The translations under genes and the position numbers were made by a program. Positions 21,635-23,075 of a DNA stretch of 64,000 nucleotides are shown here, piece after piece. The DNA is taken from positions 2,251,501 to 2,315,500 of the forward strand of contig NZ_JAUSVK010000001.1 of the NCBI RefSeq assembly GCF_030814655.1, given 5' to 3'. The notes beneath the pieces were generated by a model. That model worked only from the letters and a program-made list of their open reading frames with translations. It was not told the origin of the DNA and did no database searches. Numbering within the stretch: position 1 is the stretch's first letter; every line of letters begins with the position of its first letter. The DNA is from Labrys monachus (GTDB lineage: Bacteria > Pseudomonadota > Alphaproteobacteria > Rhizobiales > Labraceae).

Positions 21635-21691
21635 GGGGAGACATCTGCCGCGCGGCCCCGCCGCGTCATGATGCAACGCGACGCCGCCGCC

Positions 21692-21732
21692 CCTTCTCCC
21701 CGTTCTGACGGGGAGAAGGTAAGGATGAGGGG
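21692..21732. repeat. Intergenic palindromic repeat family 2, left of the IS110 element
   Basis: CCTTCTCCCC-GTTCTGAC-GGGGAGAAGG (21692-21719) with the tail AAGGATGAGGGG. It ends 36 bp before the assigned left end of the element. Confidence 0.8.
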
Positions 21733-21784
21733 CTGCACCACGGAACGGCAGATAGCTCCGCGCCGCCCCTTGTATCTGGACATC

Positions 21785-21963
21785 ACGATTGATGTTGGAT
21801 TGAAGCGACAGAGCCCGAGGACCGGTGGCCACCGGTCCTCGGGTGCGGTGAAGTCGCCCGTTGCCCCTCAGGTTACAACCGCAGGTGAGCCTGGGATCTT
21901 CGCCGTTGTCACGTACGACCGAATAGTCGCTGGATCGCAATCGCACGAACAAGGCAGGTTACC
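21785..21963 (+). ncRNA. Putative bridge RNA of the IS110 element
   Basis: A leader of about 180 nt between the left end and the transposase GTG. A 30-nt perfect palindrome (21814-21843, arms CCCGAGGACCGGT) gives a 5' stem-loop. Then come two candidate loops. Target loop: CGTTGCCCCT at 21859-21868 equals the left target plus core (21761-21770) except two C-to-T changes that allow G-U pairs; GGTTACAACC forms a tip; AGGTGAG at 21883-21889 is complementary to core plus right target (22927-22933). Donor loop: ATAGTCGCT at 21923-21931 equals the right end plus core (22920-22928); ACAAG at 21949-21953 is complementary to core plus left end (21769-21773). The order matches the IS621 bridge RNA. The 5' end is estimated from the predicted junction promoter. 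Confidence 0.72.
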
Positions 21964-22911
21964 GTGGCGCATCAGTTTTGTGGAGCAGATGTTTCGAAGG
22001 CGCGTCTCGACGTGGAGATGCTGGACCCGCGTGGCGAGGTGGTGAGAGCTTCTTTCATCAACGACGCGGCGCAGATCGCCGACTTTGCGGCCTTGTGCCG
22101 GGAGCATGGCGTTGAATTGGTGGTGATGGAGGCGACCGGCGGCTATGAGCGGCTGGCCTTCCTGCTTCTGTGGGAGGCTGGCATCCCCTGTGCCCTGGCC
22201 AATGCCCGGTCGGTGCGCCGCTTCGCCGAAGCCATGGGGGTGCTGGAGAAGACCGACCGGATCGATGCGGGCATGATCCGGCGCTTCGCCGAAGTGAAGC
22301 AGATGCGGCCCGATCCGCCGCCGAGCTTGGCCCAGCAAAGCCTGACGGCGCTTGTACGCCGGCTCGGCCAGGTCACGAGCGACCTTGTGGTCCAGAAGCA
22401 GCGGCGCCAGATAACGACCGACGCCAAGGCTCTCGCCAGCCTGGACGAATTGATCGCCTTCCTCAAACGCCAGTCGCGTTCGCTGGAGGGCGAGATCGCC
22501 GGTCTGATCGACGAGGATCCCCTCTGGAGCCATCTGGGGGAGACTTTTCGGTCGGTCAAGGGCGTGGCCAATCGCTCGATCGCCCGCCTGATGGCGGACC
22601 TGCCGGAAATCGGCACCTATTCCAACCGAGCCATCGCCAAACTGGTCGGCCTTGCCCCGATCGCCAGGGAAAGCGGCGCACTCGAAGGCAAGCGCCATAT
22701 CCGCGCCGGCCGGGCTCCGGTGCGTTCGATCCTCTTCCTGGTCGCCGACATCGCCCGTCGCTACGACCCCGGCCTGAAACAATTCCACCAGAGGTTGCTG
22801 GATGCCAAGAAGCCCAAAATGGTCATCCGTATTGCCCTGGCCCGCAAACTTCTCGTCAAGCTCAACGCAAAAGCACGCGATGCGCGCATCGCTTTCGCCA
22901 ACGCAACTTGA
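21964..22911 (+). CDS. IS110-family transposase (bridge-RNA recombinase type)
   Basis: A 315-residue recombinase with a GTG start. The N-terminal RuvC-like DEDD domain has D9 (CGADVSKARLD), E56 (VVMEATGGYE), D98 and D101 (EKTDRIDAG). A coiled-coil middle leads to the C-terminal Tnp domain with GVANRSIARLMADLPEIG and LVGLAPIARESG, giving the catalytic serine S237, and RHIRAGRAPVR. These positions parallel D11, E60, D102, D105 and S241 of the IS621 recombinase as I recall them. The frame is intact, so the enzyme is probably active. The stop codon TGA overlaps the TTGACA that would act as the -35 box of the circular junction. In this subgroup the guide RNA lies upstream of the gene, as here. Confidence 0.95.
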   Translation: MAHQFCGADVSKARLDVEMLDPRGEVVRASFINDAAQIADFAALCREHGVELVVMEATGGYERLAFLLLWEAGIPCALANARSVRRFAEAMGVLEKTDRIDAGMIRRFAEVKQMRPDPPPSLAQQSLTALVRRLGQVTSDLVVQKQRRQITTDAKALASLDELIAFLKRQSRSLEGEIAGLIDEDPLWSHLGETFRSVKGVANRSIARLMADLPEIGTYSNRAIAKLVGLAPIARESGALEGKRHIRAGRAPVRSILFLVADIARRYDPGLKQFHQRLLDAKKPKMVIRIALARKLLVKLNAKARDARIAFANAT

Positions 22912-22913
22912 CA
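22908..22913 (+). promoter_or_regulatory. Right-end -35 half of a junction promoter
   Basis: TTGACA at 22908-22913, overlapping the transposase stop, would lie exactly 17 bp upstream of TATCTG (21773-21778 in the left end) when the two ends are joined through one CT. Such end-to-end promoters drive the guide RNA and transposase in excised IS110 circles. Confidence 0.6.
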
Positions 22914-22926
22914 AGCCAGATAGTCG

Positions 22927-23075
22927 CTCACCTCTATCCTCTCCCCGCTCCGCGGGGCGAGGAGACATCGGCGTCGCGACAGGATGGAGAGGCCGCCGTC
23001 TCGCAGCCCGGTGATCGAAACGCGACGCCAGCCAGCCCTTCTCCCCGCTGGCGGGGAGAAGGTGAGGATGAGGGG
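22927..23075. repeat. Intergenic palindromic repeats family 2, right of the IS110 element
   Basis: A diverged unit at 22927-22963 (CTCACC..., TCCCCGC-TCC-GCGGGG) directly abuts the right end of the element. A good unit at 23037-23075 (CCTTCTCCCCGC-TG-GCGGGGAGAAGG plus TGAGGATGAGGGG) follows. The remaining gap to pheA shows no gene. Confidence 0.7.

Follow-up and report, generated by a model that had tools for sequence, protein, structure and literature searches.

A predicted bridge RNA with four guide segments in the leader of an IS110-group insertion sequence of Labrys monachus

At the edge of a palindromic, intergenic repeat in the genome of Labrys monachus lies an insertion sequence, and the locus raises the question of what directs an element to this point of this repeat. 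The stretch of DNA analysed here comprises 64,000 nucleotides (hereafter the window, to whose forward strand the coordinates refer unless given otherwise). An initial annotation, made from the letters alone, had proposed that the leader of the element contains four guide segments of an IS110 bridge RNA, which match the ends of the element as well as its present insertion site and would explain its position in the repeat. Examination of further copies, unoccupied sites and relatives leaves little doubt in our view that this is an IS110-group (IS621-like) insertion sequence moving by bridge-RNA-guided recombination, and the bridge RNA, as predicted from sequence, can be regarded as a well-supported further example of a recently described recombination system.

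Ends, core and recombinase of the element

The complete element extends from 21771 to 22928 on the forward strand and measures 1158 bp, one core dinucleotide CT being counted at its right end (22927-22928); the CT of the left junction is found at 21769-21770. These ends were set without use of the guides, from a second copy and from unoccupied copies of the repeat, in which the homologies to the left and right flank are joined with CT as overlap, e.g., GCGTTGCCC-CTCACCTC in L003 and GCGCTGCCC-CTCACCTC in L005 and L008. The second copy (G000:C1:6242109-6243266, minus strand) is located in the same genome, inserted at the corresponding position of the same repeat, and differs from the window copy in two of 1158 bp (window 22725 and 22833), both within the open reading frame. 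The left end is long with 193 nt, the right end short with 17 nt including the core. A subterminal inverted repeat of 7 bp can be read from the sequence, its left half CCAGATA at 22916-22922 and its right half TATCTGG, which includes TATCTG (21773-21778), at 21773-21779; most relatives listed display one mismatch, with C replacing T in the left half.

The open reading frame (21964-22911, forward strand) starts with GTG and encodes an IS110-family DEDD recombinase of 315 amino acids with matches to the Pfam families PF01548 (DEDD RuvC-like, E 1.2e-20) and PF02371 (Transposase_20, E 3e-12), and its relatives in the PDB are IS621 (8wt6, E 7.7e-26) and ISCro4. In an alignment of seven sequences, IS621 among them, D9, E56, D98 and D101 are invariant. 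The motif ESG, which holds the conserved serine of the Tnp domain, aligns with ESG of IS621, and one relative (L030) shows T at the serine position.

The right part of the target repeat family was found at 22927-23060 (query part 1288-1421) and a left neighbouring unit of the same family at 21675-21736 (query part 36-97), both on the forward strand and both with further matches in the genome, many in case of the right part; in total, the query was matched 66 times. The palindromic intergenic units, CCCCTCACCTCTATCCTCTCCCC and CCTTCTCCCC..GGGGAGAAGG, are abundant and occur at many places in G000:C1. Beyond the window, at G000:C1:2344853-2345531, the target site occurs three times at intervals of about 333 bp, which suggests a tandem repeat.

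Guide segments and insertion sites

All four proposed guides were located in the leader, on the forward strand, in the order known from IS621 (left target, right target, left donor and right donor guide; LTG, RTG, LDG and RDG) and with core bases in each. The word CGTTGCCCCT at 21859-21868 corresponds to CGCCGCCCCT at 21761-21770 apart from two T-for-C changes that permit G-U pairs; the LTG itself, GTTGCCCCT, is here placed at 21860-21868, its start having been annotated at 21859, and would pair with the left target CGCCGCCC (21761-21768), two of the pairs being G-U. The RTG, AGGTGAG (21883-21889), is complementary to CTCACCT (22927-22933) and fits the core and the right target CACCT (22929-22933) in seven of seven positions. 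On the donor side, ATAGTCGCT is present at both 21923-21931 and 22920-22928, and the RDG, ACAAG (21949-21953), is complementary to CTTGT (21769-21773), its role in pairing being assigned by analogy with IS621. The match of the LDG to the right end held, but the final T annotated at 21931 was dropped and the guide set at 21923-21930, as it needs to reach the core C only; this T is not required, since in IS621 the core C is the last base of the LDG and A comes next, and in five of 18 leaders here A stands in place of the T. Two adjacent bases are candidate handshake positions: C21890, next to the RTG, could pair with donor G22926 (by analogy with PMC11208158, in the portion of that paper available), and G21954, next to the RDG, could pair with target C21768 (by analogy with the published handshake).

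Chance agreement of four guides in the right order had been judged unlikely, which the score of the leader bears out. With the junctions fixed, the best ordered placement was sought, scored on core and contiguous pairing with G-U allowed and pairing beyond the core summed. The leader scored 23, a value that none of 5000 dinucleotide shuffles attained (maximum 19) and that, among 2121 further 179-nt segments of the window, was reached by four, all of which contain the flanks or ends themselves.

The flanks of other copies proved largely as the target guides predict. In the second copy the right flank matches, and the left flank shows one mismatch and one G-U pair in nine positions; among eight copies of an orthologue in genome G119, seven possess the guide-predicted right flank CTCACCC and one deviates by a single change (CTCTCCC). 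These eight copies (L108, L111, L113-L118) are good natural material for studies of site preference. The predicted joined target was met with in unoccupied repeat copies elsewhere in the genome, and the site at 6895332, GTTGCCC-CT-CACCT, shows a full Watson-Crick match to the guides. Twenty sites of the genome are exact to the wobble-compatible pattern GYYGCCCCTCACCT, 19 of which pair with wobbles, and 60 sites deviate from it by at most one mismatch, compared with nine for the reversed control; many of the target-pattern sites coincide with the repeat family. An orthologous empty site, the other comparison suggested, was not found. The element is absent from all four same-genus genomes searched, and the matches to its two flanking genes are separated by about 41 to 85 bp without a reported repeat in G001, G002 and G003 and by about 12 kb in G004.

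A protein scan yielded 185 stretches encoding a relative of the recombinase, of which the best 80 were kept. The closest relatives among these best 80 of 185 are about 50-65% identical, and the layout of the leader is common to all with a leader in reach (L022, L033, L045 and L049 are without a usable one). Their record titles name Alphaproteobacteria, Proteobacteria or genera of the Alphaproteobacteria or Acidobacteria. Apart from these, the chromosome CP036432.1 of the Planctomycetes accounts for nine IS110 loci among the matches listed (L055-L057, L059-L063, L065), with 39-40% identity.

In the relatives the target guides vary between elements and follow each element's own flanks. For 12 guide sets with 20 sites, exact non-core matches, weighted per guide set, amounted to 50.0 of 84 on the left and 56.9 of 60 on the right, and neither count was reached in any of 20000 permutations, which treat the rows as unrelated, so that relatedness among elements stays in the counts here and below. 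Duplicates were merged in this test, L028, L029, L036, L047 and L068 were left out for want of a flank or guide, and the guide pattern used missed L034 and L038, whose right guides fit in seven of seven positions by eye. The enlarged test added L120, L167 and L171 with both flanks and L068 and L036 with the right side only, and used one G119 copy of the eight; 84 of 90 bases agreed on the right (18 rows) and 69 of 112 on the left (16 rows), again with 0 of 20000 permutations each, where exact matches alone were counted, wobbles were not, and L050 and L171, with an LTG register probably one base off, were kept as read. By position, the right target matched in 18, 18, 17, 14 and 17 of 18 rows, the left target in 14, 15, 15 and 10 of 16 at -1 to -4 and in 7, 2 and 6 of 16 at -5 to -7. 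As positions -5 to -7 seldom match in relatives, the distal half of the annotated LTG is weak evidence. L167 cuts both ways (left 6/7, right 3/5). It belongs to seven loci found later, of which L164, L169 and L170 lack a right end within reach (left 3, 4 and 4 of 7) and L168 was set aside as a chance pattern match. The donor guides could be compared by match only: AGTCG of the LDG is identical in 18 of 18 leaders, and since donor guides hardly vary, the relatives provide no covariation test for them. In L119 and L068 the LDG word of the leader and the right end of the same element differ, by one and two letters, respectively.

That the repeat is found through recognition of its palindrome by the protein, as a REP-type target, and that the guide matches are chance or relics, might be thought in view of the palindromic target itself and of several relatives, e.g., L011, L030 and L032, which also adjoin palindromes of the CTCTCC type. 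However, the target guides covary with the flanks even where targets are unusual, as CTCCGTG in L050 and CTGAGCG in L037, and no such palindrome is seen by eye in the right flank of L034 or of L120; we consider this explanation highly improbable. Guidance by the RNA as the reason for insertion in this repeat is supported by the second copy, the unoccupied sites and the guide-flank covariation alike.

Leader structure, junction promoter and start codon

The predicted bridge RNA (21785-21968, forward strand), obtained with RNAalifold and a covariance model termed R1, has its start inferred from the putative junction promoter and its end set at the stem of the donor loop. Three elements follow each other on the forward strand: a 5' stem-loop (21813-21844), a target-binding loop (21846-21905; closing helix 21846-21853/21898-21905, inner helix 21857-21859/21893-21895, tip 21871-21880) and a donor-binding loop (21908-21968; closing helix 21908-21913/21963-21968 plus 21917-21920/21957-21960, tip 21933-21942). 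Compensatory changes over 18 leaders support the presence of a structured RNA. In these aligned leaders 92.8% of cells are paired and 16 of 40 pairs have changed on both sides, as opposed to 27-48% of cells paired in a control with partners slid by one to three columns, which favours the proposed structure as this was drawn from one of the 18 leaders. Most of the covariation is contributed by the 5' hairpin (10 of 13 pairs changed on both sides), and at the outer positions of the helix that closes the target loop 75% of cells are paired, at least partly since five leaders have insertions there. Among the pairs initially annotated, AAG/CTT form the inner end of the 8-bp closing helix and CCC/GGG are invariant in 18 of 18 leaders; at the tip, GGTTACAACC, two G-C pairs are invariant and a third exists in only nine of 18.

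The predicted structured RNA does not end at 21963 but runs on to about 21968. Folding of the leader only to 21963 gave no donor-loop stem because the 3' half of this stem lies partly in the open reading frame. RNAalifold recovered the stem without the proposed structure as input. It appears in the minimum-energy fold of 21771-21979 and is absent from that of 21785-21975, so that the outcome of folding a single sequence depends on where its ends are set. Most pairs of the stem are invariant, with some G-U changes, the outermost being broken in two of 18 leaders and the one at the T of GTG in one (L050); the support for the stem is consistency, not covariation.

As a scan of the window against Rfam gave no match at gathering thresholds, the structure rests on the alignment made here, and the model R1 built from this clade does find relatives. 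It detects the RNA in L120, L164, L167, L169, L170 and L171, all outside its training set, with E below 1e-50, the match in L164 being not independent as the model includes L010 from the same genome. Distant elements, L052 and L066 for example, are matched more weakly, and at E 0.1 no match was obtained in nine of 29 sources (L121, L168, L055, L070, L075, L081, L091, L107, L013); since the RNA of IS621 in L121 is missed, R1 must be seen as a clade-level model. Weak matches (E above about 1e-8) were not trusted, the best one in L095 being on the wrong strand.

At the DNA level the 5' hairpin is a perfect palindrome of 30 bp (21814-21843) with a self-complementary loop, UGGCCA. Self-complementary loops are likewise found in L010 and L164 (UUGCAA) and in L028 (CGGCCG); L011 and L031 show one changed base, and L035, L036, L037, L047 and L051 other loops. 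A loop-loop pairing between two bridge RNAs appears possible from these sequences, and the complexes of IS621, according to the published text available, draw on two RNA molecules.

Joining of the ends would place a -35 word, TTGACA (22908-22913, forward strand), which lies over the recombinase stop codon, 17 nt ahead of TATCTG (21773-21778, forward strand), a weak -10-like word with three of six letters of TATAAT and a poor match to the sigma-70 consensus. Of 20 rows listed with both ends found, 19 show TTGAC at a distance of 17 or 18 nt ahead of TATC, L050 being the exception, where the rows include copies of one element and the left end of L099 may be spurious; L002, L024 and the first rows of L034 and L110 were set aside, as a guide copy inside the leader and not the right end had been matched. 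In L035, L037 and L051 the -35 word and the stop codon of the recombinase lie apart, an arrangement that favours a promoter over a remnant of coding sequence.

The predicted closing stem of the donor loop includes, on its 21963-21968 side, the GTG start codon, and the RDG together with G21954 reads AAGG, a Shine-Dalgarno-like motif 9 nt before GTG. At the start position GTG is found in 17 of 18 aligned leaders, counting the one studied here, and ATG in none. The remaining one, L050 (L050:1303-1513), displays GCG instead, looks decayed and lacks the junction -35 word, yet its right guide fits in seven of seven positions; it is probably a recent inactive copy. That the leader acts solely as a structured 5' untranslated region controlling translation of the recombinase, as the start codon within the donor-loop stem and the overlap of AAGG with the RDG might suggest, is still less credible than recognition by the protein alone, for it leaves both the target guides following the flanks and the leader matches to the ends unexplained, and such control could hold in addition to, not instead of, a bridge RNA.

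For the bridge RNA itself, the modelled stem over the start codon is a possible variation on what is known. Rather tentatively, one transcript may serve two exclusive purposes in this clade, guide folding shutting off translation of the recombinase and translation unfolding the guide. Such a choice, if real, would determine how much guide is present relative to protein, and it would account for the prevalence of GTG and the lack of ATG in the leaders. No mention of an overlap between guide RNA and start codon was found in the accessible portions of the open-access literature on IS110 bridge RNAs searched, and the possible overlap offers a testable regulatory idea.

Proposed mechanism and comparison with known systems

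For circle formation, transcription, protein binding and catalysis, the mechanism favoured here follows the published work on IS621 by analogy. Joining of the ends in a circle would bring the -35 and -10-like words together, and transcription from the resulting junction promoter would produce a bridge RNA of about 184 nt from the leader, with read-through giving the recombinase message. The target-binding loop would pair with GYYGCCC-CT-CACCT at the edge of the abundant intergenic palindromic repeat and the donor-binding loop with the joined ends, ATAGTCG-CT-TGT, whereupon the recombinase would exchange strands at the shared CT core and place the element in the repeat. As this case shows, bridge-RNA guides can be identified in a single element lacking annotation, and further copies, empty sites and relatives can serve as a check on them. 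The clade added here, with members in Alphaproteobacteria and Acidobacteria, leans in its target match more on positions -4 to +5 around the core than on the distal left target, and should be useful to collectors of programmable recombinases.

The element resembles IS621 in its DEDD recombinase, which carries the same pair of Pfam domains, and in the location of the predicted RNA in the left end. According to the available portions of the IS621 papers (PMC11208160, PMC11208158), it further shares with IS621 the target loop before the donor loop, the order LTG, RTG, LDG, RDG, the CT core, the strand of pairing and the core within the guides, insertion in extragenic palindromic repeats and, putatively, a promoter across the joined ends. 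In contrast, the recombinases are only 27% identical, and the RTG has 7 nt including the core versus 4 in IS621, longer RTGs being reported for some IS621 orthologues (PMC11208160, in the text available). The 177-nt RNA of IS621, whose end was placed on L121 via the published LTG numbering, stops at 582, before the ATG at 583, whereas the last predicted stem here covers the GTG start codon. Subterminal inverted repeats in the IS621-like IS110 group are short (2-3 bp); the one read here has 7 bp.

A junction promoter has been published for IS621 (PMC11208160) as well as for ISEc21 (PMC11187229), as far as the accessible parts of both papers go. ISEc21, a member of the IS110 family with a seekRNA, is similar, in the part of its description available, in the non-coding region upstream, the circle with junction promoter (predicted here) and the top-strand match 3' of the bottom-strand match, and differs in its target inside transposase genes of the IS3 family (PMC11187229). 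With the IS1111 group the element has in common a DEDD recombinase with an RNA guide, and the 7 bp of its subterminal inverted repeat lie in the range of 7-17 bp reported for that group (PMC11208160, in the portion available), although the replacement of T by C in the left half breaks one pair of it in most relatives listed. The RNA of IS1111 elements, however, is situated downstream in a long right end, whereas here it lies upstream in the left end and the right end is confined to 17 nt.
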